DNA of 42,123 nucleotides from Oscillospiraceae bacterium (GTDB taxonomy: Bacteria; Bacillota; Clostridia; Oscillospirales; CAG-272): contig SVQK01000010.1 of assembly GCA_015065385.1 (NCBI GenBank), positions 1 through 42,123 of the forward strand, in the 5' to 3' direction. The position numbers and the translations under genes are program-made. Shown piece by piece: positions 33,067-42,123 of this stretch. The notes below the pieces were generated by a model. The model saw nothing but the letters and a program-made list of their open reading frames with translations. It was not told the DNA's origin and searched no databases. Position 1 is the first letter of the stretch. The number at the start of each line of letters is the position of its first letter.

Positions 33067-33404
33067 TCGGGGACTGGTGCGATGCCTGACTCGAAACCTT
33101 CGAGAAGCCGAACATGAGAGCCTAAACTACGAATCCTACGAAGGCGACATCCGCCTCCGCGTCAAGCCCGGCATCGGCGATTTCACGGCGGCTGCGTCCA
33201 CATTCTCTCCGCCTCGCCCGACATATGGAAGAACGGATGTTTTATTGGCCTGCGCGCGGGGGGAGATTTACCGTCTCGGCGGAGTGGAGGTATGAGTTTT
33301 CGGCGGAAAAATGATTTGAGCAAAACATCTCGGGGCTCTCGCCGCTGAAAGCACATGCATAGAAAACGGTTGTATATACGTTTATTTGCGCATACAAACG
33401 GATA
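33067..33404. other. Non-coding DNA; an 80-codon frame here is not supported
   Basis: An open frame at 33053-33295 has no ribosome site, no promoter and no recognisable domain. A loose inverted repeat (TTTCGGCG near 33298 and CGCCGCTGAAAG near 33342) and an imperfect one near 33367-33400 are present. I see nothing else. Confidence 0.45.
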
Positions 33405-33518
33405 GAAAAGAACGGGCTGCCGCAAGCTCTCGAAAAGGGAGGCGGCAGCCCAGTCTTTCATCAAGCAAAGCCGTAATTATTTCAATCCACACATTCTGAA
33501 AATCCCCAAAAATGTGAC
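33405..33518 (-). ncRNA. crRNA-like regulatory RNA (CreR/CreA-type) upstream of the cas operon
   Basis: On the minus strand the element reads: a pseudo-repeat (33518-33479), a guide (33478 to about 33452) and a terminator hairpin (33451-33414) followed by a T-rich tract. The pseudo-repeat starts GTCAC where the array repeat starts GTCGC. It has a stem CACATT/AATGTG (33511-33516 with 33490-33495) and ends in TGGATTGAAAT, identical to the 11-base 5' tag a type I-C crRNA keeps after Cas5c cleavage, placed directly after the stem as in the real repeat. The guide AATTACGGCTTTGCTTGAT matches 33573-33591 except at position 6, and that site is preceded by TTC. Its promoter is uncertain: TTGTCA-16-CAGAAT overlaps the pseudo-repeat, and an extended -10 lies at 33632-33660. 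Function is inferred. Confidence 0.78.
33414..33451 (-). terminator. Terminator of the crRNA-like RNA
   Basis: GGGCTGCCGC (33414-33423) and GCGGCAGCCC (33442-33451) form a perfect 10-bp stem. Read on the minus strand it is followed by GTTCTTTTCT. It stands where a second repeat would be expected. Confidence 0.75.
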
Positions 33519-33527
33519 AAGGAAGAC

Positions 33528-33556
33528 TTGACAAAACGACGCCGAGGTGCTATACT
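33528..33556 (+). promoter_or_regulatory. Promoter P1, facing the cas genes
   Basis: TTGACA (33528-33533), 17-base spacer, TATACT (33551-33556), giving a start near 33563. CCGAG (33542-33546) and CTCGG (33555-33559) form a palindrome over the -10 box. The guide-matching site begins about ten bases after the start. P1 lies some 200 bases before cas5c, with no terminator seen between. Confidence 0.8.
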
Positions 33557-33569
33557 CGGAATTGCAGGT

Positions 33570-33591
33570 TTCAATTAAGGCTTTGCTTGAT
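33570..33591 (+). promoter_or_regulatory. Protospacer-like target of the crRNA-like RNA, with TTC PAM
   Basis: TTC (33570-33572) is followed by AATTAAGGCTTTGCTTGAT (33573-33591), which matches the first 19 guide bases at 18 positions, the exception being position 6. Matching stops abruptly after position 19. The site lies just downstream of the P1 start, where a bound complex would block transcription. Confidence 0.78.
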
Positions 33592-33631
33592 CCTGCTCAA
33601 AGATCGTTCTGTCAATTGTCCTTCCGCTTAG

Positions 33632-33660
33632 ATTATACCATTTTCCCACTCCCAACGCAA
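33632..33660 (-). promoter_or_regulatory. Possible minus-strand extended -10 promoter
   Basis: On the minus strand TGG precedes TATAAT (33632-33637), with TTGCGT (33655-33660) 17 bases upstream. It could start a transcript running into the crRNA-like element. Such a transcript would also carry the complement of the target site and could fold on itself, so this assignment is tentative. Confidence 0.45.
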
Positions 33661-33706
33661 GCGGGACGAAAAAGAAAATATTTTCTCTATAATTTGCTTT
33701 ATTCTA

Positions 33707-33735
33707 TTGACAACGGCGCCATATTTAGTTATAAT
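33707..33735 (+). promoter_or_regulatory. Promoter P2, immediately upstream of cas5c
   Basis: TTGACA (33707-33712), 17-base spacer, TATAAT (33730-33735), giving a start near 33742. AGGGAGG precedes the cas5c ATG. P2 alone could express the cas operon. Confidence 0.85.
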
Positions 33736-33764
33736 GTTATCGAAAAAACGAGGGAGGTACATCT

Positions 33765-34436
33765 ATGGTCCAACTCGAATACCCGATCCAAATGGAGATT
33801 GCCGGTCCAACCGCGATATGGACAAGGCCGGATACCGGTGATTCTCCCGTCTCCTATCCTGCTCCAACCTATTCAGCGGTCAAAGGGATTTTCGAAACGA
33901 TCCTATGGGGACCGGCTGTGGAGATTGTTCCGACGAAAGTTGAGATATGCAGGCCGATCCAGTATCACAGCTATGCGACAAATTACGGAGGACCGCTTCG
34001 AGATCCCAAGAACATCAAGTCCGGGAATAACTATCAGCTTTTCGCTACCGTGCTGATAGATGTTTGCTACCGCTTGTTTGCTGTTGCAAGACCATGCTCA
34101 AACAAAAAGCAATTTCCCGAATCGGCGAAAAAATGGGACTCTCGGACAACAGCGCCGGGTCATGCCTATCAGGCAATGCTGGAACGCAGATTGAAGCGCG
34201 GCCAATCGTATGGGAGTGTTTGTTTAGGCTGGAGTGAATTTACGGCATCATATTTTGGTCCCTTCCGTGACGAAACTTCGGTTTGTACGGATATTGACGA
34301 CGTTCTGCTCCCTTCCATGCTTCGGCAGACATTTTCAAATGGCTACAAATCCAGTTTTTTCCCTGTTTACGATACGTCAATTGTGATTCGCAAAGGAACG
34401 CTTTCCTTTTTAGAAGGGAGGACCAGCCATGATTAA
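33765..34436 (+). CDS. cas5c: Cas5c (Cas5d), type I-C crRNA-processing subunit
   Basis: A 223-residue RAMP-fold protein. In type I-C it replaces Cas6: it cuts the repeat after the stem and then stays on the 5' tag of the crRNA in Cascade. The N-terminal segment EIAGPTAIWTRPDTGDSPVSYPAPTYSAVKGIFE is characteristic of I-C Cas5, and the His/Lys/Tyr-rich stretch HAYQAMLERRLKRGQSYGSV (about 148-167) is in the region of the processing site. It has a strong ribosome site (AGGGAGG) and lies about 20 bases after the P2 start. Its last eight bases overlap cas8c. It is more AT-rich than the genes to the left. Confidence 0.92.
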   Translation: MVQLEYPIQMEIAGPTAIWTRPDTGDSPVSYPAPTYSAVKGIFETILWGPAVEIVPTKVEICRPIQYHSYATNYGGPLRDPKNIKSGNNYQLFATVLIDVCYRLFAVARPCSNKKQFPESAKKWDSRTTAPGHAYQAMLERRLKRGQSYGSVCLGWSEFTASYFGPFRDETSVCTDIDDVLLPSMLRQTFSNGYKSSFFPVYDTSIVIRKGTLSFLEGRTSHD

Positions 34437-36522
34437 TGAGCTCCATGAGTTGAACCTTGCGCTTCGGGAAGCTGGAATCGCTGCTGATGCATGGCACAGG
34501 AAGTACCTTCCGATTGCAAATATTAAATCTAACGCTCCCTGCTTGAGAATCGTTCTTGATGGGAACCGAGTGGCTGAAATCGAGCAGGTCGCAGCAGATA
34601 AAGGAAGCAATATCCGAAGATATGGAGATAATCAGGGATCCTTTCCCGCAATGAATTTGGCTGCGCTGTACCGCATTAGAGACGAAGACATAAAAAAAGA
34701 GATTCTACAACTGATCAAGGAAGGTGGAGAGTACGATATTGACAGAATTGAGAGTTGGTGCGTTACGGACAACTGGTCAAAAAACTTCCGCCAAAAGTTC
34801 AAAATAAGCATAGAAGCGAGACCTCAGGAACTCCAACAGATGCTTAAGAAGGGAGCCGGGTATGAACCGATAAACGACTTGATAGAAGCGGTTCAGCCAT
34901 TTATCGATCCAAATGTATTCCACAAAGAACTGAAAGAAGCCGCTTTTGCTATGTTGAAAGCTCGAAGAGGAATGGCAGCGGCACTTCAAACTCTTTTCTT
35001 TTTGCCAACCGAGAAAGAAATAAAACAGGAAGACTATGGAAAACTATCCGTCGTCCTTGACACTTATGCTCTGGAGGATCAAGGCTTAACTACGGTGGGG
35101 TCGAGATTTGCCAAGGGCTTGAATAAAGCTCTTCTCCACGCCGATCAACACGCGCATTCTGAAAAACCTCTGGAAGAAAAAGATGCCTTTGGACGAAATT
35201 TCAGCCCTATGGACGAACCGATGCCAAAGGTGAAACTTGCAGCTGGATTCGACGTATCGCTCAGGACCATGTTCAAAGGGCAGCCGTGTCAACATCGTTA
35301 CGGAAAAATTGAGAATGATTCTTACCCGATCTCCAAAGAAGAGCGGACAGAATTGAGTGCTGCGCTGGACTGGATTGCGAAGAAGGAATACGAAAACAAG
35401 ACATGGGTTTCCACCGGGAAAGGAGAAGCGATGTTTGTGTTTCCGTCCAGTCTATATGCGCAGATCCCGGACATAGCGGGAATGTATCAGAACACACAGC
35501 AGAATACACCGTATGGACAAGCTCTTTTTGAGGCAAAGGCGAAAAGCTTTACTGAATATGTGACAAAAACAAAAGAACTTGACCCCGAGCATGTTCTCGA
35601 ATGGATTCAGTTTTTCATTTTGAGAAAACTGGATAAGGCAAGGACTAAGGTCATTTACAGTTATAACGCAAGACCAGACGAGATCGTGCGGCGAAGCGAC
35701 GATTGGATCAAGGCGGCAAAGAATCTGCCGGAATTCCATTTCGGGACGCCAAGGGTTCCATTCCCTTTGAGAATCGCTGATATCCTGAACAGTGTTTGGA
35801 AACAGGACGGTACGCCGGCGAGCGAAAAATATAAAGAGGTCTCTGCGTACTATGGAATGGAAATGTTCTTCGGCGCTGCGGACCTGAACCGCGCGATACG
35901 GTCGCTGATAAAAAACGCAGTTCCTCTGGGAGCCTATGCCGGTGCAAAACTGAACTCGCATCAAACCATTAAAAGTCAGCTGCCTCAATTACACTTGACA
36001 CTTGCGTTGATGGGGATGCTGCTTTATTGGGAAAACATCAGAAAGGATGTGTATATGAACGAGTATCCTTACCTTTTCGGGCAGCTTTTGAAAGCTGCCG
36101 ACGGTCTCCATGAACTTTACTGCATGACGGAGAGAAACGGTCAGTTGCCCCCGCAATTGGTGGGGAGCAGCATGTATCAGGCATCCATGGAGTTTCCAAG
36201 CCGCACGTTGGCGCAGCTTGTTCAGCGTCTTTCGCCTTACCTTGGATGGGCCAAAACACACGCGGAAAAGAGCTATCTGATAACTAAGGAAAACGGAGAA
36301 ACCGTCAACAGTCCCCGTGCAGCTTATTATCTCAGTGTATTCAACGAGATTGCCAGCAAGCTCTACGTCGTACTGTCTGATCAAACGCGGTTCAGCGATG
36401 TCGAAAAAGCACAGTTATTTATCGGATATCTGGCTTCCTTCCCAAAAAGACAAAACAATCAAACACCCCCAGTAGAACAAACAATCAATGCGGATCTGAA
36501 AGGAGATTCATCCGATGAGTAA
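34429..36522 (+). CDS. cas8c: Cas8c (Csd1), large subunit of type I-C Cascade
   Basis: A 697-residue protein in the large-subunit position between cas5c and cas7c. Cas8c recognises the PAM and, with Cas11c, supports the R-loop. Sequence similarity to other Csd1 proteins is loose to my eye, and the protein is longer than many (about 570-650 residues), so the call leans on context. The N-terminus (LPIANIKSNAPCLRIVLDGNRVAEI) and FDVSLRTMFKGQ region fit the family. The start has GGGAGG eight bases upstream and overlaps cas5c by eight bases; the end overlaps cas7c by eight. An internal start for the small subunit is predicted at 36055. Confidence 0.85.
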   Translation: MINELHELNLALREAGIAADAWHRKYLPIANIKSNAPCLRIVLDGNRVAEIEQVAADKGSNIRRYGDNQGSFPAMNLAALYRIRDEDIKKEILQLIKEGGEYDIDRIESWCVTDNWSKNFRQKFKISIEARPQELQQMLKKGAGYEPINDLIEAVQPFIDPNVFHKELKEAAFAMLKARRGMAAALQTLFFLPTEKEIKQEDYGKLSVVLDTYALEDQGLTTVGSRFAKGLNKALLHADQHAHSEKPLEEKDAFGRNFSPMDEPMPKVKLAAGFDVSLRTMFKGQPCQHRYGKIENDSYPISKEERTELSAALDWIAKKEYENKTWVSTGKGEAMFVFPSSLYAQIPDIAGMYQNTQQNTPYGQALFEAKAKSFTEYVTKTKELDPEHVLEWIQFFILRKLDKARTKVIYSYNARPDEIVRRSDDWIKAAKNLPEFHFGTPRVPFPLRIADILNSVWKQDGTPASEKYKEVSAYYGMEMFFGAADLNRAIRSLIKNAVPLGAYAGAKLNSHQTIKSQLPQLHLTLALMGMLLYWENIRKDVYMNEYPYLFGQLLKAADGLHELYCMTERNGQLPPQLVGSSMYQASMEFPSRTLAQLVQRLSPYLGWAKTHAEKSYLITKENGETVNSPRAAYYLSVFNEIASKLYVVLSDQTRFSDVEKAQLFIGYLASFPKRQNNQTPPVEQTINADLKGDSSDE
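36055..36522 (+). CDS. cas11c: Predicted Cas11c small subunit from an internal start in cas8c
   Basis: Type I-C systems make their small subunit by internal translation of cas8c. Here an in-frame ATG at 36055 has AAAGGA (36042-36047) seven bases upstream. It would give 155 residues (starting MNEYPYLFGQLLKAADGLHE) covering the C-terminal helical part of Cas8c, slightly longer than small subunits described elsewhere. The frame and ribosome site are visible; use of the start is inferred. Confidence 0.6.
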   Translation: MNEYPYLFGQLLKAADGLHELYCMTERNGQLPPQLVGSSMYQASMEFPSRTLAQLVQRLSPYLGWAKTHAEKSYLITKENGETVNSPRAAYYLSVFNEIASKLYVVLSDQTRFSDVEKAQLFIGYLASFPKRQNNQTPPVEQTINADLKGDSSDE

Positions 36523-37399
36523 TGAAATCAAACGTGCAACAGGTTTACTGGTTCTTGAAGTAGTCAATTCGAATCCAAACGGAGACCCGGACAGAGAGTC
36601 GGAACCTCGGATGCGTCCCAATGGTTTGGGAGAAATCTCACCGGTATCGTTCAAGCGAAAACTTCGTGATCTGGTAGGAGACCATGATGCGCCCTTTTTC
36701 AAAAACCTGCCGACGAAATTCAGCGATCATCCTGCAAATTATGAGATCCTTGAAAGCCGGGGAAGGGACAGAACGTCAATAACCAAAGAAATGGGTGAGA
36801 ACATTAAGTCCTTTGACCAGAAGATGTTTCTTGAAAGTGCGTTTGTAAAAAAGTATTGGGATGCCCGCGTGTTTGGAAATACATTTCTTGAAGAAGGAGG
36901 AAACAAAGGCTATATCAAAACAGGCGTGGTCCAAATTGGCATGGGGCTTTCCGTTTCCCCTGTGAATGTAGTTCATCACACCAACACCAACAAGGCCGGT
37001 GTTCAGGAAGGAAAAAACGCCGGAATGGCTCCGATGGCCTACCGCGTTGTAGAGCATGGTGTCTATTGTATGCCCTTCTTTGTAAACCCGAACTATGCGG
37101 GAAAAAGCGGCTGCACTGCTGAGGATATCGAATTGTTAAAGCTGGCAATTCCGTATGCCTATGATCTGAACCGTTCCGCCATCCGCCCCGATGTGCGAAT
37201 CCGCCACGCATGGTACATTACACACAAAAACTCGCTCGGAAGTTGCCCGGATTACCTGCTTTTGGAAGCACTGACACCTGAACGGATCGGAAATCCGGGA
37301 GATCCCTCCGAGAAATGGGGTGATTACGAAGACAGGCACGGTTTGCCGGAAGCACTATTGGACCGTGTGGAGAGTTGCGTCGATCTGGTGAATTCTTGA
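36515..37399 (+). CDS. cas7c: Cas7c (Csd2), backbone subunit of type I-C Cascade
   Basis: A 294-residue RAMP protein that polymerises along the crRNA to form the Cascade backbone. The opening RATGLLVLEVVNSNPNGDPDRESEPR and the later RDRTSITKE, FGNTFLEEGGNKGYIKTGVVQIGMG and DVRIRHAWYITH segments are typical of Csd2. It starts within the last eight bases of cas8c with ribosome site AAAGGAG, and its TGA stop overlaps the ATG of cas3 (TGATG), so the four interference genes form one coupled unit. Confidence 0.94.
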   Translation: MSNEIKRATGLLVLEVVNSNPNGDPDRESEPRMRPNGLGEISPVSFKRKLRDLVGDHDAPFFKNLPTKFSDHPANYEILESRGRDRTSITKEMGENIKSFDQKMFLESAFVKKYWDARVFGNTFLEEGGNKGYIKTGVVQIGMGLSVSPVNVVHHTNTNKAGVQEGKNAGMAPMAYRVVEHGVYCMPFFVNPNYAGKSGCTAEDIELLKLAIPYAYDLNRSAIRPDVRIRHAWYITHKNSLGSCPDYLLLEALTPERIGNPGDPSEKWGDYEDRHGLPEALLDRVESCVDLVNS

Positions 37400-39648
37400 T
37401 GGAATACTTAGCCCACAGCGAGCGGGACGGTATCCCCGCGCAATCATATTCGGAGCATGTCAGCCATGTGAAAGAAAAAGCGACGAATTATGCAAGAGAA
37501 GCCGCAGTCTATGCAGCAAAAGACGGTGACTTGTTAATACGATGCTCGGAAGAGAGCGGAGAGTGGCATGATACCGGAAAACTGCTGAAAGAGAATCAAG
37601 ATGTTTTACACGAAAAGAACAGCCGCTCCAAGCTTAAGATACCGCATGATGATGCTGGCGCAGCAACAATGATGCAAGCGTGGTTTGCGAAGGAAAACAT
37701 CCCTGCACTTGCGATCTATTCTCATCATCGCGGCTTGCCCAATATCGCCTCGGAAGAGATCAAAGGGCGCGCATGTTATCGGGATGAGTCGGAAGGAGGT
37801 GAAAACAGACGTCGGGTTGATGCGGAACTTGATTCGCTGATTTCCCTACATAGGGAGCTGACCGGCAGAGGCGTTATCGAAAAAACAGACGCACCGAGCT
37901 GCGACTTTGGCGTTTTTTCACGAATACTCTTATCCTGTCTTGTTGACGCCGACCACACGGATACAGCGATCCATTATCGCAAATACCCTGCGGATATGGA
38001 ATCTCCGAAGCTTCGTGCAAAAGAACGGCTGGAACAACTGGATCGATACATCGAGGGGTTGAACATCAATGACGAACGCAACAGACTGCGTGCGGAGATG
38101 TATCGGGTATGTAAAACTGCCGAACCGAGTGCGAATATCGTTGCCTGCGACAGTCCGGTTGGTTCCGGAAAGACTACCGCCGTTATGGCGCATTTGCTTC
38201 ATGAAGCGATCAAAAGGAATGCGCGCCGGGTATTTGTCGTTCTGCCGTTTACCAATATCATCAAGCAATCTGTGGAGGTTTACCGAAGGACCCTTGTGCT
38301 TCCGGGAGAAAAAGAGGAAGATGTCGTTGCGGAACTGCATCACCGTGCAGACTTTCAAAGCATTGAGGCGCGAGCTTACAGCGCGCAATGGCGGGCTCCG
38401 ATCATCGTGACCACAGCGGTGGCTTTCTTTGAGACTATCGCCTCAAACCGCCCGGCTACTCTGCGACGGTTGCATGAGCTTCCCGGCAGTGTTATTTTCA
38501 TCGATGAAGCTCATGCGGCGCTTCCGGTCAAACTCCTCCCCGTCACCTGGCACTGGATGCAGATTCTGGCGGATGAATGGAGCTGCTATTGGATGCTGGC
38601 TTCCGGATCTCTGGTTGAGTTTTGGAAGATTCCTGAGATTGCTGACTCCGAAACACACCGAGAAGTGCCGCAGCTTGTGGAGAATCAGCTTCGAGAACGC
38701 CTCGCCGAATTTGAGCAGAGACGAATCAGTTATCCACTGATCGAAACACCCTTCAGCAGAAAAGATCTGATCGAACGAATCAAATCAGAACCGGGACCAC
38801 GCCTCGTAATCATGAACACAGTTCAGTCTGCAGGCGTAGTCGCAAGAGATTTGCTTAAGTCGTATCAAGATCAGAAGGACGTCGATTCATGTGACGGGAA
38901 AGTGCTTCATCTTTCAACGGCGCTGACTGCGGAAGACAGAGACGCTGTAGTCGATACTGTCAGAGAAAGATTGAAAAAACTGAAGGAAACGAAAAGAGTA
39001 TTGGACACAGACTGGACTCTTGTGGCAACCTCCTGTGTGGAAGCCGGTGTGGATTTTTCCTTCCGCACAGGCTTCCGAGAGATTTCTTCACTGCTTTCTC
39101 TGCTTCAAGCGGCCGGAAGAATCAGCAGAAACGGAGAGTATGACGACGCCAAAATCTGGAGTTTTTCCATGCAGGATGATAACATGCTCACACAGAACCC
39201 TGGTACAAAAGATTCCGAAAGCGTCCTAAACAGATTCTTTCAACGCGGCTTAACGATTTCCCCTGCCCTTTGTACGCAGGCGATCATTGCGGAATTGAAT
39301 AGACAGTCGGAAAATCAACTTCCTCTTTTGAAGGAAGAATTGAAACAGAACTATCAGGAAGTTGGCCAAAACTTCAATGTGATCGAAAGCGATACTGTAC
39401 TTGTGATTGCGGACGCAGATTTGAAATACCGGATTCGCTGCGGTAAATGTGAATGGCGAGAAATCCAGCGTAAGGCAATCCCGATGCGTTTGTATCTCAT
39501 TAAAAAGCTTTCTCTTCAAAAGTTGACATACAGCGAAGACGATAAGGATTGTCTTTATGACTGGAATCTGCCGTATGACACTTTCCTTGGAACCATGGCA
39601 GGAGTATTGGAATTTCTACAATCAAAAAACGAATTATTGTGTATGTGA
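37399..39648 (+). CDS. cas3: Cas3, HD nuclease-helicase of type I-C
   Basis: A 749-residue effector that degrades target DNA after Cascade binding. The N-terminal HD nuclease has its metal ligands: His20 (YSEHVSH), His57-Asp58 (EWHDTGK), His83 (IPHDDAG) and His109-His110 (YSHHRG). The superfamily 2 helicase has Walker A SPVGSGKTT (about 252-260), DEAH in VIFIDEAHA (about 368) and motif VI LLQAAGRISRNG (about 570). The frame opens earlier, but the ATG overlapping the cas7c stop is the natural start. Cas3 stands after cas7 rather than first in the operon, unlike the usual I-C order. Its composition is AT-rich, in contrast to cas4 only 14 bases downstream. Confidence 0.95.
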   Translation: MEYLAHSERDGIPAQSYSEHVSHVKEKATNYAREAAVYAAKDGDLLIRCSEESGEWHDTGKLLKENQDVLHEKNSRSKLKIPHDDAGAATMMQAWFAKENIPALAIYSHHRGLPNIASEEIKGRACYRDESEGGENRRRVDAELDSLISLHRELTGRGVIEKTDAPSCDFGVFSRILLSCLVDADHTDTAIHYRKYPADMESPKLRAKERLEQLDRYIEGLNINDERNRLRAEMYRVCKTAEPSANIVACDSPVGSGKTTAVMAHLLHEAIKRNARRVFVVLPFTNIIKQSVEVYRRTLVLPGEKEEDVVAELHHRADFQSIEARAYSAQWRAPIIVTTAVAFFETIASNRPATLRRLHELPGSVIFIDEAHAALPVKLLPVTWHWMQILADEWSCYWMLASGSLVEFWKIPEIADSETHREVPQLVENQLRERLAEFEQRRISYPLIETPFSRKDLIERIKSEPGPRLVIMNTVQSAGVVARDLLKSYQDQKDVDSCDGKVLHLSTALTAEDRDAVVDTVRERLKKLKETKRVLDTDWTLVATSCVEAGVDFSFRTGFREISSLLSLLQAAGRISRNGEYDDAKIWSFSMQDDNMLTQNPGTKDSESVLNRFFQRGLTISPALCTQAIIAELNRQSENQLPLLKEELKQNYQEVGQNFNVIESDTVLVIADADLKYRIRCGKCEWREIQRKAIPMRLYLIKKLSLQKLTYSEDDKDCLYDWNLPYDTFLGTMAGVLEFLQSKNELLCM

Positions 39649-39662
39649 GAAGGAGATACAGT

Positions 39663-40325
39663 ATGTTCGCCGAAGACGACTTCCTCCCCCTCTCCGGCAT
39701 CCAGCATTTCGCGTTTTGCCGGCGGCAGTGGGCGCTCATCCATATCGAAAACGTATGGGAAGAAAACGGCAGGACGGCAGAAGGGCGGCTGCTGCATGAA
39801 AACGCGCACGACGCATACCGTCCGGAATCGCGCGGGGAGGTTGTCATCTCCCGCGCCGTCCCCGTCTTCTCCCGCACCCTCGGGCTGAACGGAGAATGCG
39901 ACGTGGTAGAGTTCAGACGCGATCCGAACGGAGTCCCGCTCGCAAGGCGCGAAGGGCTGTGGACGATTTTCCCCGTTGAGTATAAAAGAGGCTCGCCGAA
40001 AGAAGACCCATGCGACGCGCTTCAACTGACCGCTCAGGCAATATGCCTTGAGGAGATGTTCTGCTGCCCGGTTCCCGCCGGCGCGCTGTTCTACTTCGAA
40101 ACCAAACGGAGGCAGCGCATCGACATCACGGACGAACTGCGCGACACCGTCCGCGCGTATGCCGCCGAAATGCACGGATACGCAAAAAGGGCTTATCTGC
40201 CAAAGCCAAAACGCACGAAGGGCTGCGGCATGTGCTCTTTGAAGGACGAGTGCCTGCCGAAGCTCGAACGCCTGCCGTCCGCGGGTTCCTATAACGAAGA
40301 AAACCTGGGAGGCACGACTGCATGA
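39663..40325 (+). CDS. cas4: Cas4, Fe-S exonuclease of spacer acquisition
   Basis: A 220-residue PD-(D/E)xK nuclease that trims prespacers and selects the PAM. Cys19, Cys188, Cys191 and Cys197 (CGMCSLKDEC) would hold a 4Fe-4S cluster; the nuclease residues are His45 (GRLLHE), Asp80 (GECDVVEF) and Glu106/Lys108 (PVEYKRG). The ATG at 39663 has GGAG upstream; an earlier in-frame codon at 39639 lies inside the end of cas3. The gene is GC-rich, like the chromosomal genes to the left and unlike cas5-8-7-3. It ends in a four-base overlap with cas1. Confidence 0.94.
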   Translation: MFAEDDFLPLSGIQHFAFCRRQWALIHIENVWEENGRTAEGRLLHENAHDAYRPESRGEVVISRAVPVFSRTLGLNGECDVVEFRRDPNGVPLARREGLWTIFPVEYKRGSPKEDPCDALQLTAQAICLEEMFCCPVPAGALFYFETKRRQRIDITDELRDTVRAYAAEMHGYAKRAYLPKPKRTKGCGMCSLKDECLPKLERLPSAGSYNEENLGGTTA

Positions 40326-41371
40326 AGAAAATGCTCAACACGCTGTACGTCACGACGGAAACGGCATATCTCTCGCTTGACGGCGAAAATGTCGTCGTCC
40401 GGGCAGACGATCCGGAGAGCGGAGAATCGCGCGAGCTCGGACGAACGCCGCTTCATCTGCTTGACGGGATCGTAACCTTCGGTTATGTCGGCGCATCCCC
40501 CGCTCTGCTCGGGAAATGCGCGGAATACGGCAAGGACATGACCTTTCTCACGCCGTCCGGTAAATTCCTGTGCCGGACCGTAGGCAAGGTTCGCGGAAAC
40601 GTTCTGCTGCGTCGGGAGCAGTTCCGGTGGGCGGATTCGTCCGAAAAATCCCTGTCCATTGCCCAAAGGATGATTTCAGCCAAGCTCTTGAACAGCGCTG
40701 CCGTCCTCCGGCGCGCAGTCAGCGATCACGCGGAAAGAATCCGCGCGGAGGAAGTGGAAAACGCTGAGAGTCAGCTCAGGCAATTCTCCCGTTCGGCTTA
40801 CCGCGCCGAATCCCCCGATTCTCTCCGCGGGCTTGAGGGGGATGGGGCGCAGCGGTATTTTGCCGTATTCGACGAGCTGATCTTGCAGCAGCGGGAAACC
40901 TTTTCCTTCTCTTCCCGAAACCGCCGTCCGCCTCTCGATCCGGTCAACGCCATGCTCTCCTTCGGGTATTCCCTTATGACCGCGGTGTGTTCCTCGGCGC
41001 TGGAAACCGTAGGACTCGATCCTTACGTCGGCTTTTTCCACACAGACCGGCCGGGACGCGCGTCGTTGGCACTCGATCTGCTCGAAGAGTTCCGCGCGCC
41101 GTTCGTCGATCGCTTTGTGCTGACCCTCATCAACAAAAGGCTTGTGTCAGACGCGGATTTCGTGCAGAAGGAAAACGGCGCGGTTCTTCTGCGGGATGAA
41201 AGCCGACGGGAATTCCTGGCGCAGTGGCAAAAAAAGAAACGGGAAGAGATCGTTCACCCCTATCTCGGTGAGAAAACGACGTGGGGGATGCTGCCGTTCC
41301 TTCAGGCACAGCTTCTCGCAAAAGCCGTGAGGGGCGATCTGGACGACTACCCGCCGTTTCTCTGGAAATGA
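40322..41371 (+). CDS. cas1: Cas1, CRISPR integrase
   Basis: A 349-residue integrase, catalytic half of the Cas1-Cas2 spacer insertion complex. The metal-binding triad is visible: Glu172 (GLEGDGAQRYF), His240 (GFFHTDRPGR) and Glu255 (LDLLEEFRAP). It begins at an ATGA overlap with cas4 and is followed by cas2 after seven bases, forming the adaptation unit. Composition is GC-rich, as in cas4. Confidence 0.96.
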   Translation: MKKMLNTLYVTTETAYLSLDGENVVVRADDPESGESRELGRTPLHLLDGIVTFGYVGASPALLGKCAEYGKDMTFLTPSGKFLCRTVGKVRGNVLLRREQFRWADSSEKSLSIAQRMISAKLLNSAAVLRRAVSDHAERIRAEEVENAESQLRQFSRSAYRAESPDSLRGLEGDGAQRYFAVFDELILQQRETFSFSSRNRRPPLDPVNAMLSFGYSLMTAVCSSALETVGLDPYVGFFHTDRPGRASLALDLLEEFRAPFVDRFVLTLINKRLVSDADFVQKENGAVLLRDESRREFLAQWQKKKREEIVHPYLGEKTTWGMLPFLQAQLLAKAVRGDLDDYPPFLWK

Positions 41372-41378
41372 GGCAGCC

Positions 41379-41669
41379 ATGCTGACTTTGATTACTTATG
41401 ACGTATGCACCGCAGACGCAGCGGGAAGAAAGCGCCTGTCCAAGGTGGCAAAAATCTGTGTGAATTACGGACAGAGGGTGCAGAATTCCGTTTTCGAATG
41501 CGAGCTGGACAACGCTCAGCTGATCTTTGTCCGCGACAAGCTGAGAAAAGCTATGGATGAAAAGCAGGACAGTCTGCGGATCTACAACCTCGGGAATCAT
41601 TACGCAAGCAGGATCGAGCATTACGGCGTCAAAAACACCTACGACCCGGAAGACGCAATGATTTTGTAA
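41379..41669 (+). CDS. cas2: Cas2, adaptation subunit
   Basis: A 96-residue ferredoxin-fold protein that bridges two Cas1 dimers. The N-terminal strand LTLITYDVCT carries the conserved Asp8; RVQNSVFECEL and the C-terminal strand follow the family pattern. A GAGG motif precedes the ATG. It is the last cas gene, 160 bases before the array. Confidence 0.95.
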   Translation: MLTLITYDVCTADAAGRKRLSKVAKICVNYGQRVQNSVFECELDNAQLIFVRDKLRKAMDEKQDSLRIYNLGNHYASRIEHYGVKNTYDPEDAMIL

Positions 41670-41829: not shown

Positions 41830-42123
41830 GTCGCTCCCCTCACGGGGGGCGTGGATTGAAATTTCGTAGGTCTCACAGTTTGAAAGGTCGGACGGAGTCG
41901 CTCCCCTCACGGGGGGCGTGGATTGAAATTCCATTGCATCAACCGGGACTACACGCTCACGCTTGTCGCTCCCCTCACGGGGGGCGTGGATTGAAATACT
42001 TATGATAAACACTTGATCGAAAGTGACGCGCGTCGCTCCCCTCACGGGGGGCGTGGATTGAAATGCTCTGGATCAAATCAAAAACAGCAGATATGACGGT
42101 CGCTCCCCTCACGGGGGGCGTGG
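41830..42123 (+). CRISPR. Type I-C CRISPR array, four full repeats and one cut by the window edge
   Basis: The 33-base repeat (positions 41830-41862, 41897-41929, 41965-41997, 42032-42064 and partial 42099-42123) is identical in every copy. It begins GTCGCTCCCCTCACGGGG and ends CGTGGATTGAAAT. CGCTCCCC pairs with GGGGGGCG to form the stem, leaving the 11-base tag TGGATTGAAAT. Spacers are 34, 35, 34 and 34 bases and differ from each other. The array continues beyond the window. I see no match of these spacers elsewhere in the window. Confidence 0.98.

Follow-up and report, generated by a model that had tools for sequence, protein, structure and literature searches.

Upstream of its cas5 gene, the window analysed here, which is the whole stretch of 42,123 nucleotides from an Oscillospiraceae bacterium, carries a lone crRNA-like unit on the minus strand (33405-33516) that is composed of a diverged stem, a tag, a guide, and a terminator-like hairpin. 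From its sequence we consider it likely that this unit is a CreR-like autorepressor, which is predicted to load into the bacterium's own type I-C Cascade and to repress the cas transcription driven from the promoter-like sequence P1. That the guide is a Cascade guide, as claimed in a previous sequence-only reading of this DNA, is strongly supported by the mismatches at guide positions 6 and 12 across 13 guide-target pairs from the window and other loci. The repression probably concerns P1 only, and a second promoter-like sequence, P2, would escape it.

The cas operon and the crRNA-like unit

The 3′ end of the window contains the operon cas5-cas8c-cas7-cas3-cas4-cas1-cas2 followed by a CRISPR array, all on the plus strand, and all seven parts of a type I-C system (Cas8c, Cas5c, Cas7c, Cas3, Cas4, Cas1c, and Cas2) were matched by PADLOC models. 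The first gene, cas5c (33765-34436), matched the PADLOC Cas5c model with an E value of 1.1e-25 and TIGR01876 with 66.2 bits, which is below the cut-off of 85. It is followed by cas8c (34429-36522; PDLC01562, Cas8c, E 4.8e-189), a cas7 of the I-B/I-C type (36515-37399), cas3 (37375-39648; PDLC01765, Cas3c, E 3.7e-104), cas4 (39639-40325; PDLC01773, Cas4c, E 1.3e-85), cas1 (40322-41371; Cas1c, TIGR03640 with 464.2 bits and a cut-off of 385), and cas2 (41379-41669; Cas2c, E 4.6e-40). The best PADLOC match of Cas7 was an I-B/I-C model (PDLC01614, E 2.5e-54) rather than a Cas7c model (best E 1.4e-35). Cas5 and Cas7 both fell below the NCBIfam cut-offs for I-C, and Cas5 shared 23-34% identity with 36 plasmid-borne matches, most of which are annotated as I-C Cas5c; the window therefore represents a divergent branch of type I-C. 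The array (41830-42123) consists of five copies of the repeat GTCGCTCCCCTCACGGGGGGCGTGGATTGAAAT, starting at 41830, the last of which is cut by the contig end.

Read along the minus strand, the unit begins with a diverged repeat (PsiR, 33490-33516) that is predicted to fold into a stem-loop of eight pairs, CACAUUUU/AGAAUGUG, with the helix ending exactly 11 nt before the guide. The interval is the 11-nt tag TGGATTGAAAT (33479-33489), which reproduces the 3′-terminal bases of the array repeat at 11 of 11 positions. The stem differs in sequence from that of the canonical repeat, yet the pairing is kept and its final pair directly abuts the tag, a boundary at which Cas5c is known to cleave. In type I-C systems the processing enzyme is Cas5c rather than Cas6. 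The guide extends over 27 nt (33452-33478) up to a terminator-like hairpin (33405-33451), which was recognised by folding and replaces the second repeat; it is absent from the list of the strict terminator scan, which covered loops of 3-8. The complete element of 112 nt has a predicted folding energy of −39.1 kcal/mol (z = −3.35), and 2 of 200 shuffles were equally stable. As in CreR, a repeat-like sequence with an intact 5′ handle is thus found outside the array and adjoining the cas genes.

The first 19 nt of the guide (33460-33478) match a protospacer-like target on the plus strand (33573-33591) at 18 of 19 positions, the sole mismatch being at guide position 6, and a TTC PAM (33570-33572) directly precedes the target. 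The match has a score of 18, compared with a maximum of 10 among 200 shuffled guides, and in the source genome, which is 94% complete at 4.3 Mb, TTYAATTANGGCTNTGCTT with up to two mismatches allowed occurs nowhere but at the target and in the element itself. The TTC starts 14 bp beyond the end of P1 (TTGACA-17-TATACT, 33528-33556, plus strand), which has 11 of 12 consensus bases, a resemblance that alone is no evidence of function. The guide is therefore partly complementary, next to a PAM, to a cas promoter region in the manner of CreR, provided that P1 serves the cas genes, as we presume. By eye, the target is located inside an imperfect inverted repeat, GCAGG..CCTGC (33564-33596), so that the RNA from P1 would begin with a hairpin.

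The tag after a diverged stem, the guide followed by a terminator in place of the second repeat, and the TTC-flanked target just past P1 had all been described in the sequence-only reading, and each description proved accurate. The same reading had taken P1 to be the system's own cas promoter. The target does follow P1, but P2 (TTGACA-17-TATAAT, 33707-33735, plus strand), which agrees with the consensus at 12 of 12 bases, had been overlooked; it is nearer to cas5, between this gene and the target, and is not covered by the target. A counterpart of P2, TTGACG-17-TATAAT, was seen by eye at the same place in the related locus L018.

The window's best candidate for a promoter of the element is a weak one on the minus strand (TTGACA-17-GATCAA, 33587-33615), 137 nt before the guide, with 9 of 12 consensus bases overall and 3 of 6 in the −10 region. 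Since this −10 region overlaps the target, it is tempting to speculate that the guide might limit itself too. The −10 region of P1 is part of a short inverted repeat, CCGAG..CTCGG (33542-33559), which is a terminator-like site on the minus strand and stands between the element and a candidate promoter for it.

Guide-target pairs in related loci

Relatives were gathered by Cas5 into a set of 21 loci, comprising 6 and 13 from searches of genomes, the contig L037 from a phage collection, and the window. Eight of them (the window, L019, L020, L021, L023, L028, L034, and L038) have, in addition to a lone tag, a guide for which a matching target was found. This target is located in the stretch from the element to cas5 in the window, L019, L020, L021, L023, and L038, and its distance upstream of cas5 is 19-138 bases in L019, L021, L023, and L038; in L028 and L034 it is flanked by the element and by a small divergent ORF that is not a cas gene. 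Seven of the eight loci have a clear hairpin after the guide, the predicted fold of L028 showing none, and a helix of 4-8 pairs is flush with the 11-nt tag in six of the eight, a count made without a chance control. When the best site per locus was chosen with the PAM unscored and no position favoured, five of the eight sites were flanked by TTC and three by TTT, against a background of 5.8%. Guides placed on the region of another locus (n = 146) reached a top score of 13. The promoter candidates of L019, L021, L023, L028, L034, and L038 have 4-6 of 6 consensus bases in the −10 region and 9-10 of 12 overall, and L020 has no element-promoter candidate above 8 of 12.

The module is absent from 13 of the 21 loci, including that of the closest relative, L018 (cas5 87%); no element was found in either L018 or L022. 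Upstream sequence is short in L025 (418 nt), L029 (640 nt), L032 (421 nt), and L035 (145 nt), so the absence of the element there means little. In L027 and L032, a similar guide and hairpin accompany a tag or repeat that has decayed; both loci were rejected for want of a matching target, as were L030 (score 9, GTC) and L036 (score 6), in which a lone tag has no acceptable target. Eight weak Cas5 matches (L010-L017), kept outside all counts, contain no tag, and no Cas5 relative was found in a viral contig collection.

Other features were observed upstream of cas5 in this set. In L018 (4300-4936), a truncated Cas3-HD-like frame is located directly before cas5, at the position that the element has in the window (by eye). 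The cas5 gene of L023 (Merdimmobilis hominis) is frameshifted, and the element and a weak target are still present. HTH-regulator-like ORFs were seen by eye in L025 and L033, and an inverted repeat resembling AGTCC..TTTAT..GGAC before cas5 in L025, L033, and L020; perhaps these belong to a protein-based regulation of the same operon. In L032, the terminal part of an otherwise normal array, a degenerate repeat and guide-like unit some 160-370 bases upstream of cas5, resembles the elements of L027 and L034, which may illustrate how such elements originate from the end of an array.

Classical I-C systems were represented by 90 Bacillota loci from a search with the Cas3c family, 30 of them around cas3 and 60 consisting of upstream stretches; some end at contig ends, and their assignment to I-C is by Cas3 alone. 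Because the collecting family, PDLC01766, also covers a WYL part, its presence in 168 of 398 genomes does not give the number of I-C systems. In 5 of the 90 loci (L064, L066, L067, L074, and L081), a lone tag was detected together with a target of score 12 or more, in every case with TTC or TTT. Such elements, which had been thought to be perhaps new for the lineage of the window, are thus not restricted to it: among the Cas3c loci sampled from the phylum, 5 of 90 have one. The genes for Cas5c and Cas8c are next to cas3 in four of the five (L064, L067, L074, and L081), and the contig of L066 stops after cas3. By eye, the target is just upstream of cas5 in L064, over a promoter-like stretch upstream of cas3 in L081, and upstream of the element itself, towards cas3, in L066, L067, and L074. 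A second repeat-like sequence follows the guide in L066 (by eye), and a WYL-domain gene is adjacent to the element in L067.

Several other candidates were discarded. Among the Cas3c loci, L132 (score 11, GTT), L137 (score 11, GTG), and L136 (score 10, GTT) were dropped because their flank is not TTY, and L079 has a score of 10, a GTT flank, and a tag with two mismatches. L054, L057, and L086 contain a lone tag and no good target, L138 is an array, and L099 (score 17, TTT) was excluded because two tag-like sites occur together with a direct repeat. None of the 13 plasmid I-C loci examined (among 36 records) passed, the plasmid locus L049 (score 9, TTC) falling short. On a Paenibacillus amylolyticus plasmid (L048, 6400-7000), the gap between cas3 and cas5 contains a lone tag, a guide, and a hairpin, together with a weak TTC-flanked match (score 8) ahead of a small ORF, which provides a lead for classical I-C.

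Over all 124 loci, a lone tag was present in 23, and 16 of these had a guide match with a score of at least 10 nearby. The flank was TTC or TTT in 13 of the 16 matches, and hence for 13 of the 23 lone tags, compared with 10 of 2480 random guides; the TTC/TTT PAM and a tag at most one base off were part of the criterion for the 13 pairs. Counted along guide positions 1 to 16, the mismatches in these pairs number 0, 0, 0, 0, 0, 11, 0, 1, 2, 1, 1, 12, 2, 0, 2, and 2. Position 6 is therefore mismatched in 11 and position 12 in 12 of the 13 pairs, every other position up to 16 in at most 2, and positions 1-5, 7, and 14 are matched in all 13. The scoring left positions 6, 12, and 18 unpenalised, and the same 13 sites were still the best ones with no free position. 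Freeing 6, 12, and 18 gave nine pairs with a score of at least 12, compared with three for each of seven other spacings. The weakest pairs are those of L023, L028, and L064, whose scores were reached by 3, 2, and 1 of 200 shuffled guides, respectively.

In the Cascade of type I systems, every sixth base of the guide is flipped out and unread. The mismatch rates of 85% at position 6 and 92% at position 12 are close to the 75% that unread bases would give, and selection for mismatch therefore need not be assumed. That these mismatches reflect the unread sixth base of a type I Cascade is strongly supported by the distribution, which neither an operator nor a chance repeat would predict. The 13 pairs vary in sequence, orientation (eight are inverted, and five, in L019, L020, L023, L064, and L074, are direct), and place. 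In relatives, the guide and its target diverge jointly while the tag (0-1 base off) and TTC/TTT are kept, as expected of a CreR; the sequence-only reading had proposed to judge its claim by this comparison, and the outcome is in agreement with it.

Proposed action and alternative explanations

We propose that the element would be transcribed from the minus strand and that Cas5c would cleave the transcript at the stem base, so that the tag becomes the 5′ handle of a processed RNA that would start with UGGAUUGAAAU at 33489 and end near 33405. Cascade loaded with this RNA would pair with the target via positions 1-5 and 7-19 and, positioned at about +8 to +40 of P1, would form a roadblock, and owing to the shortness of the match Cas3 would leave the site intact. 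A shortage of Cascade, its titration by array crRNAs, or its inhibition by an anti-CRISPR would release P1, which would then contribute to the expression of the cas genes; P2 would provide a floor outside the control of the guide.

P2 is between the target and cas5 and is not covered, suggesting that the repression is probably of P1 only. The presence of P2 in the window and of a similar promoter in L018, which lacks the element, likewise suggests that the guide would control P1 alone. The previous interpretation as an autorepressor largely holds, with the restriction that P2 would escape. P1 would then serve as a reserve, becoming active once little free Cascade is left. P2 and the weak promoter candidate of the element weaken a plain autorepression story.

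Given that P2 is already before cas5, P1 may have another job, and the guide could resemble CreA in repressing a short toxic RNA or peptide that P1 expresses from the stretch between the target and P2, so that the loss of Cascade harms the cell. The elements of L028 and L034, whose targets are in the intergenic stretch upstream of a small divergent ORF that has a good ribosome site, are consistent with such a function. However, no ATG was seen by eye between P1 and P2 in the window, and a mechanical GTG-start ORF (33547-34056) begins inside P1 and overlaps cas5. On the plus strand of 33350-33800 the terminator scan listed no terminator-like site, so RNA from P1 could run into cas5, and the short distance from the target to cas5 in L019, L021, L023, and L038 leaves little room for a toxin gene. 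For the window, we consider this CreA-like function unlikely.

The two copies in the window are inverted around P1, and the target is within an imperfect inverted repeat; the earlier reading had named such a spaced inverted repeat as the main rival, and it could represent the operators of a protein regulator. This explanation is refuted as a general account, as relatives do not have the same sequence in a fixed inverted orientation: the copies are direct in 5 of the 13 pairs and vary in sequence between loci. The tag beside one copy, the TTC or TTT beside the other, and the mismatches at positions 6 and 12 also argue against it, which makes it very improbable. A dead relic, namely a leftover array unit with a spacer once taken from the cas promoter and now without function, would agree with the diverged repeat, with the degenerate, target-less unit that ends the normal array beside cas5 in L032, and with the broken cas5 of L023. 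Speaking against it are the intact tag of the window, a stem that has changed in sequence and kept its pairing, positions 1-5, 7, and 14 matching in all 13 pairs, and the hairpin after the guide in seven of eight loci, and we regard it as improbable. Chance similarity might be suspected from the AT-rich regions of some relatives and from the 1-3 of 200 shuffles that reach the scores of the weaker pairs. It is refuted for the window, in which no shuffle of 200 reaches the score and the match is unique in the genome, and the frequency of 13 in 23 against 10 in 2480 leaves it a negligible probability.

Beyond the CreR-like autorepressor of the window, a broader proposal, for which we see the chances as evenly balanced, is that lone crRNA-like regulators across Bacillota I-C systems use their own Cascade as a repressor, with positions 6 and 12 drifting unread. 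Two jobs would then exist among the close Cas5 relatives: in some species the cas operon would be silenced, and in Desulfitobacterium relatives a small divergent gene, which is a candidate toxin in a CreTA-like arrangement. The autorepressor proposed for the window would extend RNA-guided self-repression of CRISPR-Cas to type I-C, and the 13 natural pairs are a read-out of what I-C Cascade possibly demands for binding without cutting. The pairs suggest that it may require TTC or TTT together with positions 1-5 and the majority of 7-11, with 6 and 12 dispensable. A search rule applicable to any I-C genome would combine a lone tag, TTY, and a match that ignores positions 6 and 12, and anti-CRISPRs against I-C Cascade are predicted to raise cas transcription.

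Comparison with known systems

The window element would work like CreR, a form of self-control that has been reported for other CRISPR types. The primary CreR paper reportedly appeared in Cell Host Microbe in 2023, and our literature search, which did not extend to that paper, found no description of a type I-C case. In the available part of PMC13131331, CreR (cas-regulating RNAs) are named for types I-B, I-E, and V-A, and CreR and "type I-C" are both mentioned, in separate places. The accessible text of PMC12737573 (section 3.2) attributes CreR more loosely to "Type I and Type V-A". The window element shares with CreR a crRNA-like RNA that partly matches the cas promoter region and the predicted repression through its own effector. 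It differs in belonging to type I-C with Cas5c processing, in having one repeat and a terminator, in the second promoter that would escape, and in being a prediction from sequence.

According to the available excerpt of PMC8501985, the CreA of H. hispanica has one repeat-like unit and a terminator, and that of H. hubeiense pairs via positions 1-5 and 7-11 next to TTC; a CreTA of type I-F from Acinetobacter is mentioned in the accessible part of PMC11963374. As far as these excerpts go, CreA shares with the window element one diverged repeat with a terminator (the H. hispanica form), the TTC PAM, and pairing at positions 1-5 and 7-11. CreA, however, represses a toxin, whereas no toxin ORF was seen by eye in the window.

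The elements of L028 and L034 are closer to CreA than is that of the window. Small ORFs of 53 codons (L028, 978-1139, minus strand) and 74 codons (L034) with AGGAGG-like sites are located divergently beside the target, and in L034 two targets flanked by TTT are present. When 5.8 billion sequences were searched by a word-based method, the L028 ORF matched two protein clusters, one of which is Dhaf_2182 of Desulfitobacterium hafniense, and the ORF has no match to a Pfam family. By analogy, we suggest that these modules in Desulfitobacterium relatives are candidates for a CreTA-like layout.

Racr are solitary repeat units in viral genomes, as described in the part of PMC10651486 that was available. 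The window element shares with them the single repeat unit outside an array; as portrayed in that part, Racr are virus-borne inhibitors, whereas the window unit is located beside a bacterial cas operon, and its guide has a target.

In type II-A systems, tracr-L, a long tracrRNA, directs Cas9 to repress its own cas promoter through a short match. The window element would likewise repress its own cas promoter via a short match, and differs from tracr-L in the type of system, since the latter depends on Cas9 and a long tracrRNA.
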